Below are positions 20,710-26,255 of a stretch of DNA of 64,000 nt, piece by piece. A program made the translations under genes and the position numbers. Numbering within the stretch: the first letter of the stretch is position 1; every line of letters begins with the position of its first letter. The notes under the pieces are model-generated. The model saw only the letters and a program-made list of their open reading frames with translations. It did no database searches and was not told where the DNA came from. Source of the DNA: Mariluticola halotolerans (lineage in GTDB: Bacteria > Pseudomonadota > Alphaproteobacteria > Rhizobiales > Devosiaceae); the NCBI RefSeq assembly GCF_021611515.1, contig NZ_CP090960.1, positions 1,736,001-1,800,000 of the forward strand, in the 5' to 3' direction.

Positions 20710-21499
20710 ATGCTGGATTTAATATCTTTAATTCAATTTATACTTCAAGACAAAGTCCAATCCCACGACGAGGCTGCTTCGATTGTGGTGGATGCTGGCA
20801 GGCTTGAAGCCGAGTTATTGCTGCACATCGCCCACCGTTTCGCAATTTCCGGGACTGACATCTATGCCCACAGCGCGCAGTTTTGCGGCTTGCCGTTTTC
20901 ACCAGTTGTGCCCGATGGGCTGATCCGGGATATCGATGGCAGCCATATCGACCGGCTGGGTGATATGCGCAGTGTGACCGTAAGAGTTCAGGATCGCGAT
21001 ATCCTGTTTCTGGCACCCGGGGCGGCGCAAATGCTGGCGCTTGCACACAGACGGCAAAGCGGTCTGTCGCTGATGCGGGATATCTGTGTAGTCCCGCCGG
21101 CCGCGTTGCGCGCGGCGCTGATCCGCGCGCATGCTGATAATTTGCTGCAATTCTCGCGGCAACGGCTCGCGCGCCGCTGGCCGTTTGCAAGCGCTCATCT
21201 GGATCTTACCCTTGCTGCGCGGCTGGGGTTCGTTACCCTGCTGAGTGCGCTTGTGGGTGTGACGGCACTGGTGCCTTTTGCCCTGTCGGCGATCCTGCTG
21301 CCGCTGTTGGCCCTGCTGTTTCTACCGCCGTCCTTTTTCCGGCTGGCCGCGCTGATGGAAAAGCCGAAGCGGCCACGGCCGGCGGATGAGAGCCTGCTCC
21401 CCGACATCGCCTTGCCGGTTTATAGCGTGCTTATTCCGTTGCGCGATGAAACCGGCATGGTGCCGCAGCTGGCCGCGGCCATGCGCGCGCTCGATTATC
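20710..21499 (+). pseudogene. Family 2 glycosyltransferase, 5' part, disrupted by IS1595-type insertion
   Basis: The first 263 codons of a processive-type glycosyltransferase. An N-terminal domain of about 165 residues without clear homology by eye is followed by two membrane helices (about 175-215) and the start of the GT-A domain (PVYSVLIPLRDETGMVPQLAAAMRALDYP). The mobile element enters right after ALDYP; translation then runs 15 codons into the element and stops at 21546. Joining base 21499 to base 25144 restores one frame of 634 codons including stop. The product is probably inactive in this strain because DXD and QxxRW motifs lie in the severed part. Confidence 0.9.
21492..21499. repeat. 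Left copy of the 8-bp target site duplication (CGATTATC)
   Basis: CGATTATC immediately precedes the left inverted repeat and recurs at 25136-25143 immediately after the right one. Eight-base duplications are typical of IS1595-family transposition. The sequence belongs to the glycosyltransferase coding region (Leu-Asp-Tyr-Pro codons). Confidence 0.92.
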
Positions 21500-21524
21500 C
21501 GGCCTTATGTATCAAGCGCACCAA
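21500..21524 (+). repeat. Left terminal inverted repeat of the IS1595-type element (25 bp)
   Basis: Starts CGGCCTTATGTATCAAG and is the exact reverse complement of 25111-25135 over all 25 bases; identity ends at base 26. It should be the transposase recognition end. Confidence 0.92.
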
Positions 21525-21567
21525 ATTCACGCACGAATATAACTGAATCCAGTGCTATTGTCACGGC

Positions 21568-21996
21568 ATGAGCGACATGCCACAAGTTTTAAACACCCTG
21601 CACACCAAAGCCGACAAGATAGCTGCACACATAGCCAGCCTTGAAGCTGAGATAGACCAAGCCCGCATGGCACTGGCACATGTAAACGCAACAATCGTCC
21701 TGTTTGAGGCACCAGACGCACAAAGCCGCCAGCCCGCGCTTATGGACGTGAACCGGCTGTTCAAGCGCCGTGAGGTCTCACAACTGTGCGCTGAGGCACT
21801 ACAGGGCGGGCCAATGGATACGCGGGCGCTGGCGCTCTATATCATTCGCAAAAAGGGCTTTGATGAAAACGACCGGCACTTAAAGAAGGCGGTCGCATTT
21901 CGCGTTGTGCAAGCACTGAGATTGCAGGAAAAGCGGGGCGGGCCGATAAAAAGAGTCGGGAAGCATCAAAATGTAGTGATCTGGGAACGGTCTTAA
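21568..21996 (+). CDS. Element-borne hypothetical protein with coiled coil and winged-helix-like end
   Basis: A 142-residue protein 44 bases inside the left terminal repeat. Residues about 5-45 (LHTKADKIAAHIASLEAEIDQARMALAHVNATI) have heptad spacing typical of a coiled coil. Residues about 60-138 (REVSQLCAEALQGGPMDTRALALYIIRKKGF and RVVQALRLQEKRGGPIKRVGKHQNVVIWE) look like a winged-helix domain ending in a beta-wing. I recall similar hypothetical proteins near mobile elements in alphaproteobacteria, but no named family. It may be a regulator or accessory factor of the element; that is inference. Only a weak ribosome-binding site precedes the ATG. Confidence 0.7.
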   Translation: MSDMPQVLNTLHTKADKIAAHIASLEAEIDQARMALAHVNATIVLFEAPDAQSRQPALMDVNRLFKRREVSQLCAEALQGGPMDTRALALYIIRKKGFDENDRHLKKAVAFRVVQALRLQEKRGGPIKRVGKHQNVVIWERS

Positions 21997-22119
21997 ATCT
22001 GCCGAGTTCACCCCTTATGTTAAGAGAAACTTGACAACCAAGCCTTTCTAATGCCTCAATCTGTCAAGGCGGAGGGGTTTTGGTTGAGTTCTTTATGTCT
22101 CGACCAAAGGAGCGCAAAA

Positions 22120-22320
22120 ATGGATTTTGATTTTCTCATTTTGCTGCCGTTTGTTGCGGTGGTCGGTGGACTGGTCACTCTCAATGGCTTGTTGGTACTG
22201 TTGAGGCTATCTCATCACGGTAAAGACGCCAATCGTCTTGTGAGCTTTGTCGCTCCCTTGATTACATTGTTAAAACTCGGCGGTCGGTCTGGCCCAAGTG
22301 GCGAGCATCGAAAAGCCTAG
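22120..22320 (+). CDS. Element-borne small membrane protein (66 aa)
   Basis: A 66-residue protein with one strongly hydrophobic segment (about residues 4-28, DFLILLPFVAVVGGLVTLNGL) followed by a short basic tail. The start at 22120 is well supported: AAGGAG lies 7 bases upstream. I do not recognise a family. The next small membrane gene begins within about 20 bases, so they form a pair. Single-helix proteins in mobile elements can be holin-like, toxin-like or subunits of membrane complexes; nothing here distinguishes these. Confidence 0.6.
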   Translation: MDFDFLILLPFVAVVGGLVTLNGLLVLLRLSHHGKDANRLVSFVAPLITLLKLGGRSGPSGEHRKA

Positions 22321-22340
22321 TTCAGGCAAGTGGGGGCGCT

Positions 22341-22601
22341 TTGTACTGGACTGGTGTGCTCGGCAGTTTTGCCGTTGAAATAGGTGCCGCTTTAAAAATT
22401 TGTACTGAGATAGGCGGTAAAACCCCGCCAATGTACAAAGAGCCGTTCTATTTGGGTGTACGAATTGCTCTTGCGCTGGCCGCTGCCGGTCCGCTGGCTG
22501 CATTTTTGTCCAACGGAAGCGGACTAACGGCATTTTATCTGGGCGCAAGCGCTCCATTGGTTCTTGACCAACTAGCCAAGGGTATCCGCCCAAGTGAATA
22601 G
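22341..22601 (+). CDS. Element-borne small membrane protein, start uncertain, possible frameshift
   Basis: An 86-codon frame with two hydrophobic stretches (GVLGSFAVEIGAAL and GVRIALALAAAGPLAAFL) and a hydrophilic end (LDQLAKGIRPSE). The only in-frame initiator near the start is a TTG at 22341 with no ribosome-binding site. In another frame a GTG at 22298 overlaps the upstream gene and reads VASIEKPSSGKWGRFVLDW, a sensible cytoplasmic N-terminus, before crossing into this frame near 22350-22360. Either a single-base shift has broken the gene or the true start is non-canonical. No family is recognised. Confidence 0.45.
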   Translation: MYWTGVLGSFAVEIGAALKICTEIGGKTPPMYKEPFYLGVRIALALAAAGPLAAFLSNGSGLTAFYLGASAPLVLDQLAKGIRPSE

Positions 22602-22633
22602 GCGCGTCCGCAAGAATACTAATGTGGTGGTGT

Positions 22634-22664
22634 GGGGAATGGCGTAGCCGCCACTCCCCTTTTT
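22634..22664 (+). terminator. Intrinsic terminator after the small membrane gene pair
   Basis: An 11-bp stem, GGGGAATGGCG (22634-22644) with CGCCACTCCCC (22649-22659), carries one mismatch and a TAGC loop and is followed by TTTTT. It ends the rightward transcript of the element's left half, just before the leftward HTH gene stops. Confidence 0.75.
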
Positions 22665-22671
22665 GTTCCGG

Positions 22672-22881
22672 CTAGGCGGGTTCAGCAGGAACGCGCTTGC
22701 GCGCTTCCGCTTCACTGCCAACGTGCATGCGATGCTTAACAACATCACTTACACGTCCCGGGTTGACGTCGAACTCAGCGGCAATACGATTGTGGAAGTG
22801 ACCTTCCCAAACCATGAGCCAAATACGAACAGCGTCTTCAAAAGTAAGCCGATAACTCGGCGTTCTTACGTTTCCGGTCAT
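22672..22881 (-). CDS. Element-borne small helix-turn-helix protein (69 aa)
   Basis: A 69-residue basic protein. The core RLTFEDAVRIWLMVWEGHFHNRIAAEFDVNPGRVSDVVK reads as two helices then a helix-turn-helix (HNRIAAEFDVNPGRVSDVVK), with a charged C-terminal tail (SEAEARKR). Comparable short proteins beginning with an RLTFEDAV-like block occur in Rhizobiales and are usually annotated as hypothetical. A DNA-binding role is inferred. A rightward frame over the same bases (22663-22917) is rejected because only the minus-strand product has recognisable structure. It lies downstream of the transposase gene on the same strand, with 229 bases between stop and start. Confidence 0.65.
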   Translation of the reverse strand: MTGNVRTPSYRLTFEDAVRIWLMVWEGHFHNRIAAEFDVNPGRVSDVVKHRMHVGSEAEARKRVPAEPA

Positions 22882-22920
22882 ATAAAGATTCCTCTATATG
22901 GGCCGGAAGGCTATTGATAA

Positions 22921-23016
22921 AGCACGGCATATCGTGCTACTAAAAGTTGTGTTTAGATCAATGGCCAACCGGCCAAGGTTCAAATTAGGGTCGGTATCGT
23001 TAGCGCGATATCGGCC
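22921..23016. other. Run of hairpins between the element's HTH gene and transposase
   Basis: The 229-base gap between the transposase stop and the HTH start holds three inverted repeats: AGCACG/CGTGCT (22921-22926 and 22933-22938), TGGCC/GGCCA around 22962-22975, and an 11-bp stem with two G-U pairs, GGTCGGTATCG (22989-22999) with CGATATCGGCC (23006-23016). None is followed by a clear T-run on the minus strand. This could be a structured RNA, an attenuator or a replication/recombination site. No coding sequence is seen in it. Confidence 0.4.
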
Positions 23017-23110
23017 TCGTTTGATAGCGGATTCCAACAAACGTCATCATTTTATCATATTGTTAACCCTTTGACCAGACTCACTAAAAAGTGGCCTGTT
23101 CTGGTTCGGT

Positions 23111-24070
23111 TCACGCTGCGTTCCGCTGCCAATAACCCTTCCAATTTCGACTAACTGGATGCGCCATTGCATTAGCAACGGTAGCAAAAGCATTTTCGCC
23201 ATTTGACCGACGGCGGTGATCTTCCAGCCATGCAGCATGCGCGCTGTACTGGTGCAGGTACTTGGGCGAAACGCCGTGGTGCTGGCCCGTTACCATGCGG
23301 CGCAAACGGCTAAAGAAGCTTTCAACGGCATTGGTGTTTGCGCCATCGGCTGAATAAGCCTCAGAGTGATTGATGCGGCCAACGGTCCAAGCGTCGTGCA
23401 AGTGGTCCCAATGGCTACCTTCATCGGCATACACAACCGTTGCCATGCGAGAAATAACCTCAGAGGCGATCTGTACGCCCTCAGCTTCGGTCTTGCGCAC
23501 AAAGGTCAGCGTCCGGCCCATGCGCTCACGCAGGGCGATAACAACACGACGCTTGCCTGTCTGGTGACGTGCAAGGCGACGATCAACGCGATCTTCAACA
23601 TGGTTGGCAGGGCGGATATGACCGCCAAAGTATGCCCCATCGATCTCGACTTCACCGTCAAGCGTATGGCCTTTAGTTTCAGCGGCCATTGCCTCGCGCA
23701 GTTTGTGCGACATGACAAAAGCGGTTTTATACTGGCAATCCAGATCACGGCTTAACTGGCTGGCACTAATGCCCTTCACCGCGTTCACGAAAATGCAGAT
23801 TGCAGCCAGCAAGTCACAGAATGACATTTTGCGGCTGGCAAAGATTGTGCCGCTGGTCACTGAGAACTGGCGATAGCATGCCTTGCACTTGAACTTGCGG
23901 CGCGTGGTGATTTCGTAAGTCTCGCAGCAACCGCAATCAGGACAAACAGGTTCCCCGCCTTCCCAGCGCATTGCCTTGAAGGTGTCATATGCAGCGCCTT
24001 CGCCAGACTTGTAGATTTCCTTGAGGGAAAGGGTGCGGGCTGCTGCTGAAAGTAGGAAATGCTGTGCCAT
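23111..24070 (-). CDS. IS1595-family (ISXO2-like) transposase
   Basis: A 319-residue DDE transposase. An N-terminal zinc ribbon (CPDC at residues 43-46 and CKAC at 62-65) precedes the catalytic core. Metal-binding positions are D144 in EIDGAYFGG, D216 in YADEGSHWD, and the N247/E250 pair in TNAVESFFSRLRR, with the NHSEAYS block between: the ISXO2-like pattern. It appears complete and so probably active. I start at the ATG at 24070, which has GGAG 9 bases upstream; the frame continues to 24133 but without support. It is divergent from the DUF6471-like gene across a shared promoter region. Confidence 0.92.
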   Translation of the reverse strand: MAQHFLLSAAARTLSLKEIYKSGEGAAYDTFKAMRWEGGEPVCPDCGCCETYEITTRRKFKCKACYRQFSVTSGTIFASRKMSFCDLLAAICIFVNAVKGISASQLSRDLDCQYKTAFVMSHKLREAMAAETKGHTLDGEVEIDGAYFGGHIRPANHVEDRVDRRLARHQTGKRRVVIALRERMGRTLTFVRKTEAEGVQIASEVISRMATVVYADEGSHWDHLHDAWTVGRINHSEAYSADGANTNAVESFFSRLRRMVTGQHHGVSPKYLHQYSAHAAWLEDHRRRSNGENAFATVANAMAHPVSRNWKGYWQRNAA

Positions 24071-24082
24071 TGTAACTATCTC

Positions 24083-24152
24083 CGATACGTATGTATCGTA
24101 TATAGTACGTTGACGTAGCTTGTGCAAGGGCATATGTAATCATTTACGATAC
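24083..24152. promoter_or_regulatory. Divergent promoter region with paired operator-like repeats
   Basis: Between the transposase and DUF6471-like starts, GTATCGTA (24093-24100) and its exact inverse TACGATAC (24145-24152) face each other. The left copy is part of a tighter palindrome, CGATAC-GTAT-GTATCG (24083-24098). Between them is a sigma70-like promoter on the plus strand: TTGACG (24110-24115), a 17-base spacer, TATGTA (24133-24138). The right repeat would fall near the transcription start. The layout fits repression of both genes by one element-encoded regulator. Confidence 0.55.
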
Positions 24153-24173
24153 AATTAGCATCGCAGGTGATAC

Positions 24174-24398
24174 ATGGCAGAAAAAACAGACTGGGAACTA
24201 AAGGCCGCTAACCTCCTGAAAGCGGAATTGAAACGTAAAGGGGTTACCTATTCGCAGCTTGTCGAAAAGCTGGCGGATATTGGGATAGATGAACGTGAGG
24301 CGAATATCAGGAATAAGCTAAGCCGGGGGAAGTTCACTGCAGCTTTTCTTCTGGCGTGTTTGGAGGCGATTGATTCTCAATCTGTTCGTTTGGACTAG
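24174..24398 (+). CDS. DUF6471 domain protein, putative small regulator
   Basis: A 74-residue protein. The segment KAELKRKGVTYSQLVEKLADIGIDEREANIRNKLSRGKFTAAFLLACLEAIDS matches the DUF6471 pattern as I recall it: a helix-turn-helix-like fold similar to Cro-type repressors. The domain is common next to mobile genes in alphaproteobacteria. The position behind the palindromic operator suggests it controls transposase expression; this is inference. Its last 65 bases overlap the 3' end of the convergent membrane gene, an unusually deep tail-to-tail overlap. Confidence 0.75.
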   Translation: MAEKTDWELKAANLLKAELKRKGVTYSQLVEKLADIGIDEREANIRNKLSRGKFTAAFLLACLEAIDSQSVRLD

Positions 24399-25050
24399 CT
24401 GTGTCCATCCCCGGAAACTGCGGTTCATCGTCGTTGATATTAAGCCAATGGAGCCAATCCAAGTGCTCGAACCCTGAATAAGCAATTTCAGGCACAATTA
24501 TGGTAACCCGTTTGAATGAGCACCCCCGAAATGTACAGTTGTCAATAATTATTCCATTATGCGGCCATCTATCTGTACGCGTAAGTATGGCGTCGCAATT
24601 TGGGAGTCGTTGGTCGGCCAATTGATTGTTGTTTCGGATTAGTATGTTTGCAGGCCCGATGATGTCACAATTAATGAACGCTTTTCCATCAATATGCGGC
24701 TCTGATGGGAGACAAAATTCGTTGAGAAAAATTCGTTTGTTCTCGAATGTTTTAGCCATCGGGTCTACGTATCCGGACTTAGAAAACAAATACTGATTGT
24801 ATTTCGACCGGACCCATCGCCCATATGACCATGAGAATATCGCATAAGCCAAAACGGCTATAATCAAACCCACAAACCCGGCTATAACCCATGAGAGCGG
24901 TGCAAATTGCTGAAACAAGTCCATCGCACTAACCGCCCATGCCGGTAGAGCTGTTAATGCAATGAAATAACCGCCAAGCATGAATTGGCTTAATGACCAC
25001 CGCCACTCTAGTCGAGCTAGAAACTGATCTATTCTTTGTCCTATTTTCAT
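24334..25050 (-). CDS. Element-borne membrane protein with pentapeptide-like C-terminal region
   Basis: A 238-residue protein starting 60 bases inside the right terminal repeat. Two membrane helices (about residues 22-43 and 52-75) are followed by a cytoplasmic region. KTFENKRIFLNEF and HIDGKAFINCDIIGPANILI, then GIIIDNCTFRGCSFKRVTII, have the F-x-x-C spacing of short right-handed beta-helix or pentapeptide repeats. The last 30 residues are acidic and proline-rich. I recall similar hypothetical proteins but no defined function. AT content is high. It is the largest passenger gene and has no evident role in transposition, so it may be cargo that affects the host. Confidence 0.7.
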   Translation of the reverse strand: MKIGQRIDQFLARLEWRWSLSQFMLGGYFIALTALPAWAVSAMDLFQQFAPLSWVIAGFVGLIIAVLAYAIFSWSYGRWVRSKYNQYLFSKSGYVDPMAKTFENKRIFLNEFCLPSEPHIDGKAFINCDIIGPANILIRNNNQLADQRLPNCDAILTRTDRWPHNGIIIDNCTFRGCSFKRVTIIVPEIAYSGFEHLDWLHWLNINDDEPQFPGMDTASPNEQIENQSPPNTPEEKLQ

Positions 25051-25110
25051 TTAGGTATCTTGCCCCAAACCATTTGCTGAATCGAGTCATATCCCGACCC
25101 CGCGAACAGC

Positions 25111-25135
25111 TTGGTGCGCTTGATACATAAGGCCG
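25111..25135 (-). repeat. Right terminal inverted repeat of the IS1595-type element (25 bp)
   Basis: Exact reverse complement of 21500-21524. It is followed directly by the right copy of the target duplication. Confidence 0.92.
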
Positions 25136-26255
25136 CGATTATCCACCCGAAAAACTCGACATCAAATTCGTGGTGGAGGCGAGCAGTGCAGAGACGGTTG
25201 CAGCGGTAAAACCTTTCCTTGATGACCCGCGTTTTGAACTGATCGTCGTCCCGCCCTGCGCCCCGCACACCAAACCCAAGGCGCTCAATTATACGCTGCC
25301 CATGGTGCGGGGCGACCATCTGGTGGTTTATGATGCTGAGGATATACCGGAGCCGGACCAGTTGCGGCGGGCGGCATCGCAATTTGACGAAGACCCTTGT
25401 GTCGATTGCCTGCAGGCCGAACTGCGTATCGACAATGCCGGCGAAAGCTGGCTGACCGCCTTGTTTGCGGCGGAATATAGCGGATTGTTTGGCATCATGC
25501 TGCCGGCGCTGGCCCATTGGCGCCTGCCGGTGCCCCTTGGCGGCACCTCAAACCATTTCCGGACGGCCAGTTTGCGCGAGGTGGGGGGATGGGATGCGTT
25601 CAACGTTACCGAGGATGCGGATCTCGGTATTCGTTTCGCCCGGTTGCGCTACCGGGTGGGCACGCTCAAATCGCGCACTTATGAAGAAGCGCCGGTGCGC
25701 ATGATGCCCTGGATCCGGCAGCGCACGCGCTGGATGAAGGGCTGGATGCAGACCTTTATCGTCCATAACCGCTATCCGTTGCAGTTCTTGCGCGATGCCG
25801 GCTGGCGCAATTTTCTGGTGTTCCAGATTTATATCAGTGGGATGATTTTCAGTGCGCCGCTGCATCTGGTGTTTGTTATCGCCCTTTTGATCCGGGGCTC
25901 TGTGGCGCTATTCGCCGGCACCCCCGTGCAGCCGATGGCCTTTGCCCACATGTTCGTGCTTGCGGCAGGATATTTCGGGGCATGTGTACTGGCGATTGCG
26001 GGCACCGCCCGTCTGCCGGGGCAAAATATTGGCCGCTATCAATGGCTGCTGCCGCTCTATTGGGGGCTCACCGGCATTGCTGCCTTTCGCGCCATGTATG
26101 AGCTGGTGGTGCGTCCCTATTTCTGGGCAAAGACCGGCCACGGTGTCACCGAACACAGGCGCGGACCCGTTTCAGGACAAAGACAACAGACCCGGCCCGA
26201 ACCCACTCCGCCGATTGATCTCAAGAAGTGGGGGGACGCAAAAGAACCGTCCTGA
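25136..26255 (+). pseudogene. Family 2 glycosyltransferase, 3' part, disrupted by IS1595-type insertion
   Basis: Starts with the right target duplicate (CGATTATC, 25136-25143) and continues the frame broken at 21499. It holds the catalytic parts of the GT-A domain: VYDAEDIPEPDQL (DXD-like), TEDADLGIRFARL and the QxxRW motif in RQRTRWMKGW, followed by several membrane helices and a proline-rich tail. The severed piece has a possible GTG start at 25170 but lacks the nucleotide-binding opening strand. The family includes synthases of exopolysaccharide and related glycans. Precise excision would restore the gene, so the loss may be reversible. Confidence 0.9.

Follow-up and report, generated by a model that had tools for sequence, protein, structure and literature searches.

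An exchangeable IS1595 cargo gene predicted to encode a membrane-anchored Knotted Solenoid protein in Mariluticola halotolerans

Passenger genes have been described in IS1595-family insertion sequences, for which the term 'transporter IS' is used (Siguier et al. 2009, as cited in PMC3129680). The Knotted Solenoid (KS) fold, represented by the PDB entries 9RDS, 9SOJ and 9QIX, is of unknown function according to the main text of the PNAS 2026 study (PMC13123833). There, the first coil is described as two strands followed by an outward helix, coils 2, 3 and 4 start with an F-x-x-C motif, GP marks the start of the knot core, a cap helix lies at the C-terminus and the proteins form homodimers; for members of up to 250 residues, an unspecified extra N-terminal domain is mentioned. 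The main text of that study does not mention transposition, operon, mobile, rhizobia or Hyphomicrobiales, and the word 'transmembrane' occurs in it only twice, both times for other knotted proteins. HalA of the Hailong anti-phage system (PDB 9NYI) is described as a defence membrane protein with a channel role (PMC13275509).

Here, a window of 64,000 nucleotides from M. halotolerans was analysed, in which an IS1595-family transposon carries a gene, termed TM-KS, for a protein with two transmembrane (TM) segments and a predicted KS domain. The identity of the carrier together with that of the KS domain is regarded as very probable. The explanation as a whole, namely that TM-KS is an exchangeable IS1595 cargo, consists of a membrane hairpin with a KS domain and acts on the host, is assigned a probability of about 0.4. 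In a literature search, neither a membrane-anchored KS, nor the carriage of KS on transposons, nor the fixed targets of this clade were found in print; the TM-KS architecture may be present among the sequences of the KS study, given the extra N-terminal domain noted there.

The carrier transposon and its passenger gene

The carrier is an IS1595-family transposon of 3,636 bp (21500-25135) with perfect 25-bp terminal repeats (TIRs) and an 8-bp target duplication (TSD), CGATTATC. It possesses the traits of the family, i.e. DDE_Tnp_IS1595 and Zn_ribbon_IS1595 domains, TIRs and an 8-bp target duplication, and it interrupts a GT2 glycosyltransferase gene, whose joined flanks give a single open frame of 634 codons including the stop. 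The features are, in window positions:

20710..21499, plus strand, 5' part of the interrupted GT2 glycosyltransferase gene (from the flank join)
21492..21499, plus strand, left copy of the TSD CGATTATC
21500..21524, plus strand, left TIR
21568..21996, plus strand, orfA, 142 aa, a conserved small partner gene at the opposite end of the clade's elements
23111..24133, minus strand, IS1595-family transposase with Zn ribbon and DDE domains (PF12762 E 2e-33, PF12760 E 3.9e-13, NF033547 E 9.6e-43)
24174..24398, plus strand, DUF6471 gene, 74 aa (PF20075 E 1.8e-30), a core gene of the transposon clade (21/30 loci)
24334..24398, no strand assigned, tail-to-tail overlap of TM-KS and DUF6471, 65 bp
24334..25050, minus strand, passenger gene TM-KS (two TM segments and Knotted Solenoid), 238 aa, ATG start
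25111..25135, minus strand, right TIR
25136..25143, plus strand, right copy of the TSD CGATTATC
25144..26255, plus strand, 3' part of the interrupted GT2 gene (PF13632 E 4.4e-23 on 25170-26255)

The gap of around 0.9 kb between orfA and the transposase gene (22051-22917) contains short ORFs in both orientations, none of which matched a family.

An earlier note on this DNA, made from the letters alone, had described the passenger as lying right inside the terminal repeat and as the largest cargo gene. Both statements hold: the TM-KS start codon is located 60 bp inside the right TIR, and at 238 aa TM-KS exceeds every gene of the element except the transposase, orfA having 142 aa and DUF6471 74 aa. 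The same genome contains a paralogue with 37% identity (locus L006), and a copy with 69% identity is found in Devosia submarina, where it is broken at around residue 160 and spread over two contig ends. At one of these ends (L007:5550 and L008:9640), a transposase-like frame begins where TM-KS stops, and the copy looks disrupted by another insertion element. Comparison of the window gene with this copy over 157 codons gave a pS of 0.875 and a pN of 0.203, with 0.276 in the TM part and 0.106 in the solenoid (KS) part; the synonymous sites are saturated, and a pN/pS ratio is therefore left unquoted. The constraint is nevertheless plain: the comparison indicates strong purifying selection and a real gene, and the ORF at 24334-25050 on the minus strand is as the earlier note described it.

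A predicted Knotted Solenoid domain on a membrane hairpin

Three parts of the protein are distinguished:

24928..24984, minus strand, TM segment 1, residues 23-41 (hydropathy KD 1.51; AF2 helix 3-33)
24832..24888, minus strand, TM segment 2, residues 55-73 (hydropathy KD 2.53; AF2 helix 50-92)
24490..24765, minus strand, Knotted Solenoid domain, residues ~96-187 (from sequence profiles and the domain model)

The two hydrophobic segments correspond to the two membrane helices proposed earlier. Hydropathy and charge were determined for six of the seven TM-KS copies, L008 from D. submarina being left out, and both segments recur in all six; in some members the hydrophobicity of TM1 is low (KD 1.01 in G500), and the full-length AF2 model is of poor quality across the TM part (mean pLDDT 49-57 for residues 1-50). 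The loop between TM1 and TM2 contains no K/R in five of the six copies, the exception being L017 with two, while the 20 residues after TM2 contain four to five K/R in every copy. This charge pattern, read by the positive-inside rule, predicts an N-in/C-in topology, in which both ends of TM-KS, and hence the solenoid, are in the cytosol.

Scans of the passenger against Pfam and NCBIfam yielded nothing over the cut-off; Pentapeptide_3 (PF13576) reached an E-value of 0.12 and 13 bits against a cut-off of 27. A profile built from seven relatives matched 9RDS (E 4.4e-4), 9SOJ (1.9e-3) and 9QIX (3.3e-3) as the best three PDB chains, followed by an unrelated chain at 0.16 and the best pentapeptide protein at 0.78, and the paralogue L006 alone matched the same three KS structures at E-values of 2.7e-4 to 3.2e-3. 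In HHalign, the family aligned with three soluble KS proteins from the genomes G559 and G738 at 96.3% (E 1.8e-9, 103 columns); for one of these three, a check gave a match to 9RDS with an E-value of 6.6e-23. The controls gave 11% for five pentapeptide-type rows, one of which (L047) lacks the repeat in its printed part and is possibly in the wrong frame, and 0.08% for the reversed KS alignment. Since the values are 96% against KS and 11% against pentapeptide proteins, with the Pfam match below its cut-off, the fold is predicted to be KS rather than pentapeptide: by whole-domain profile similarity, the C-terminal domain of the passenger is a member of the Knotted Solenoid family. An ordinary pentapeptide protein was rejected on the same figures (13 bits below 27; 11% versus 96%).

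A model of the KS domain from ten sequences has a pLDDT of 84.6 and a pTM of 0.76, and according to DSSP it begins with two strands and a helix and ends with a C-terminal helix. The solenoid region is thus modelled as ordered and not as disordered, and the short beta-helix that the earlier note placed C-terminal to the two membrane helices is retained at this pLDDT, while its pentapeptide-like character is not, the fold being KS. The spacing of F-x-x-C and C-x-F-x-x-C that had drawn attention to the region is present, with F-x-x-C at residues 125 and 174 and C-x-F-x-x-C at residue 172, next to a GP at 132; as many of the two motifs occurred in 24 of 20,000 shuffles of the TM-KS residues. In the middle coil, C152 is present without the Phe, and the relatives from G500, G199 and G294 lack several Phe/Cys. 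Foldseek and VIA comparisons of the full-length and KS-domain models gave no match with E <= 0.001 or Z >= 5; the KS crystal entries are absent from these lists, whose library extends to 2026-04-08 and may predate their release, which makes their absence uninformative.

Distribution, cargo exchange and target sites

A three-row profile matched 8 of 397 genomes of the order, and six of these are convincing TM-KS carriers (the genome of the window, G152, G199, G294, G296 and G500). Two matches were dropped: the one in G171 (E 7.7e-4) has three in-frame stops, and the one in G439 is a pentapeptide-like gene among nuo genes, as read by eye. A single-sequence search of the family matched 2 of 136 genomes; the class search matched four of 387 (the own genome, two members of family f100 whose KS proteins are soluble, plus a short match in G586), and the phylum search matched eight of 397 (the own genome, six f100 genomes and a short match in G989). 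Searches of the carriers' own families gave 1/79 for G500, 1/11 for G199, 1/10 for G294 and 2/6 for G152. Judged from these searches, the distribution of TM-KS in Hyphomicrobiales is sporadic, which is the pattern of a mobile gene. Phage records, plasmid records and viral contigs gave no match to TM-KS. The soluble KS proteins are devoid of a membrane part. In L054:4729-8676, pheS and pheT flank a soluble KS gene within a single operon, each flanking gene being supported by a Pfam match, and the same arrangement was read by eye in L087, L088 and L089.

TM-KS occurs in seven places, namely the window, L006, D. submarina, one site shared by G152 and G296, which lies beside a moeA-like gene (read by eye), G199, G294 and G500. 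TIR-derived DNA is located just upstream of TM-KS in five of the seven, and a sixth adjoins an IS1595 transposase fragment (G152; NF033547 E 1e-8). A TIR lies directly upstream in the window, G500, G199 and G294 (0/500 shuffles each): G500 contains a complete element organised like that of the window (L019, 5218-8237, TSD CGCGTGAA), and in G199 and G294 a single repeat precedes the start codon by 119 and 87 bp, with scores of 23.5 and 25.3, respectively. The DNA upstream of L006 aligns with the repeat and leader of the window with a score of 65, the best of 1000 shuffles being 32; L006 thus has transposon-end sequence upstream, and a transposase is absent. For D. submarina, the upstream similarity to the window is marginal (3/1000 shuffles), and a general TIR weight matrix was unconvincing upstream of L006, L017 and L008, where 64, 379 and 177 of 500 shuffles were equal. 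The overlap with DUF6471 measures 71 bp in G500 (L019), while in G199 (L020) TM-KS overlaps a remnant of DUF6471 by 65 bp; no DUF6471 was detectable at the solo copies L006 and L021. The earlier note had regarded a confinement of homologues to housekeeping loci as evidence against its reading, and the homologues are instead repeatedly tied to transposon ends, though soluble KS relatives lie in the pheS-KS-pheT operon.

A search of the order with the transposase yielded 40 matches in 35 of 397 genomes, and 30 of these 40 loci were surveyed for cargo. TM-KS is found at two of the 30 (the window and G500) and DUF6471 at 21; the transposase, orfA and DUF6471 genes reappear in combination with a large variety of cargos. 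Elsewhere, the slot is occupied by an M78 peptidase with a two-TM neighbour or by DUF3800, DUF7931 or DUF6731 proteins. Five slots (L058, L065, L072, L073 and L085) contain a membrane protein that combines two, or almost two, hydrophobic stretches with a shared N-x-G-Q-[ST]-P domain; these proteins of two TM segments and a beta-domain share 18-23% identity, and no Pfam family exceeded its cut-off in the two that were scanned. The M78 peptidase of L060 matches the capP profile (E 1.1e-31), which may just reflect the common M78 peptidase fold. A related transposon on a Methylobacterium aquaticum plasmid (L030:3190-7992) carries a TM protein and a cyclase-NUDIX protein (PF00211 E 8.4e-7, PF00293 E 9.8e-5; a weak match to the PycC profile and a stronger one to PDC-S07), a combination reminiscent of signalling-type defence cargo. 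In four elements, a small HTH-type gene replaces DUF6471 (L077, HTH_3 E 9e-8; L079, L081 and L084, by eye), hinting that DUF6471, for which the literature search found no paper, might be a DNA-binding regulator.

Among plasmid relatives, 18 records were found and 12 inspected; both ends were located in 10 of the 12, with elements of 1.1 kb to 4.8 kb, and none of the 12 carries TM-KS. A transposase tree placed the window and G500 on different supported, non-sister branches, with G500 adjoining an element with the other two-TM cargo (99/96); with just two TM-KS rows, label shuffles are uninformative and the separation rests on the supported branches. Since the elements with TM-KS are not sisters and the content of the slot varies, the cargo has been exchanged, and the comparison marks TM-KS as exchangeable cargo and not as transposition machinery. 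A core transposon gene was rejected on its absence from 28 of the 30 transposase loci and all 12 plasmid relatives, which sustains the passenger status that the earlier note had given it.

The clade reuses fixed target sites. A repeat together with 30 bp or more of flank is available for 23 transposase loci, and at least nine of them are inserted in a homologue of the window's GT2 gene, a lower bound given that many flanks are short. Five of the nine lie in identical L-[DN]-Y-P codons (the window, L059, L060, L065 and L077), three at a second site, S-N-H (L061, L062 and L067), and one elsewhere in the gene (L086, i.e. G500); the exact sites were read by eye from the flanks, and the GT2 insertions are spread over genomes of four families. 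The left flanks of L068 and L073 define one common site with the same TSD, GAAATCCT, in what we take to be a comM-like gene, and others, L075 and L066, presumably lie in comEC-like and radC-like genes, as judged from the translated flanks. The comM-, comEC- and radC-like targets are competence or recombination genes. Among the 12 papers listed out of 1,330 matches in a literature search, none dealt by title with IS1595 insertion into glycosyltransferase or comM genes.

Proposed role and comparison with known systems

A cytosolic, sensor-like domain, membrane proteins as alternative cargos and relatives of defence type in the slots together suggest that TM-KS acts on the host. It would form an inner-membrane hairpin (N-in, C-in) that holds the KS domain on the cytosolic face, where the solenoid, as a probably dimeric binding module, would sense or capture a component of the host or of an invader at the membrane; ligand capture would change the state of the membrane segments. 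As an interference-type protein, TM-KS might repay the transposon by benefiting or policing the host. This role is held tentatively. Two observations speak against it: PADLOC assigned no defence family to the passenger, which lends no support to the defence link that the earlier note had considered, and the soluble KS relatives have a housekeeping setting in the pheS-KS-pheT operon. For the relative of the passenger in L019, PADLOC gave one weak match to LeoBC (E 0.0098), which covers the TM stretch.

The best-placed alternative, though an unlikely one, is that TM-KS does the job of a soluble KS protein, perhaps linked to translation or stress, and merely hitchhikes on the transposon. The soluble KS gene between pheS and pheT in L054 and the strong purifying selection on the KS half agree with such a housekeeping cargo, but TM-KS is sporadic (in the order search, six of 397 genomes are convincing carriers) and linked to the ends of transposons, and soluble KS proteins lack its membrane part. 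A more specific version of the host-acting role is rather improbable: a site-selective IS1595 shuttle would swap single-gene membrane effectors, and TM-KS would be a HalA-like channel or disruptor controlled by a ligand, with KS as its cytosolic sensor; if true, this would give the KS fold a first function. HalA was the top Foldseek row for the KS-domain model at an E-value of 0.16, which is not significant, and the top VIA row (Z 3.4, 78 residues, 3.1 A), with SV2 rows within 1 Z. Membership in the HalA family was rejected, since NF051894 has a cut-off of 250 bits and the passenger gave no row and the paralogue 13.4 bits; generic pentapeptide proteins answer to the HalA model as well, in 6 of the 21 genomes searched and in 5 of the 14 controls, always below the cut-off. 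The modelled HalA likeness is a lead only.

As a transposition accessory, TM-KS would tether the transposition complex to the membrane or regulate it there, which is improbable; its fixed place beside one TIR on the transposase strand and the conserved DUF6471 overlap of 65-71 bp would fit such an accessory, yet it is missing from 28 of 30 transposase loci and 12 of 12 plasmid records, and unrelated genes fill the slot elsewhere. A toxin-antitoxin pair, with TM-KS as membrane toxin and DUF6471 as regulator or antitoxin, could draw on the overlap of the two genes and on the HTH_3 protein that replaces DUF6471 in related elements (L077, E 9e-8), but we consider it still harder to uphold, as the genes are convergent and form no operon, DUF6471 accompanies many cargos (21/30 loci) and the solo copies L006 and L021 have no detectable DUF6471. 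Hardly any credence is given to a Qnr/MfpA-like DNA mimic protecting gyrase, for which a weak Pentapeptide_3 match (E 0.12) and pentapeptide chains without significance in the fold lists stand against a score below the Pfam cut-off and 11% for pentapeptide versus 96% for KS in HHalign.

A membrane-anchored, mobile KS protein offers a genetic setting in which the function of a newly solved knotted fold can be tested, and a little-studied IS1595 clade with a modular cargo slot and repeated target sites can be mined for host-acting genes. Compared with HalA, TM-KS is likewise a membrane protein with a solenoid-like region; however, the match falls close to the HalA N-terminus (chain residues 35-148) but follows the TM part in TM-KS, and the scanned ORFs of the element include no nucleotidyltransferase (HalB), which distinguishes it from Hailong. 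The paralogue L006 resembles mobile insertion cassettes in having an upstream transposon end and no transposase, whereas its other end matches marginally (38/1000 shuffles equal) and a target duplication was not seen by eye. TM-KS resembles the described KS proteins in its domain-wide sequence profile and, in its model, in the strand-strand-helix first coil and the C-terminal helix; of their sequence marks, it has F-x-x-C at some of the coil starts and a GP like that of the knot core. It differs by its two N-terminal TM helices, its carriage on a transposon and its Hyphomicrobiales hosts. The carrier matches the known IS1595 elements with passengers in its Zn ribbon and DDE transposase, TIRs, 8-bp TSD and extra genes, whereas the clade described here keeps its parts in a constant order (TIR, cargo slot, DUF6471 or HTH gene, transposase, orfA, TIR), swaps its cargo and repeats its target sites.
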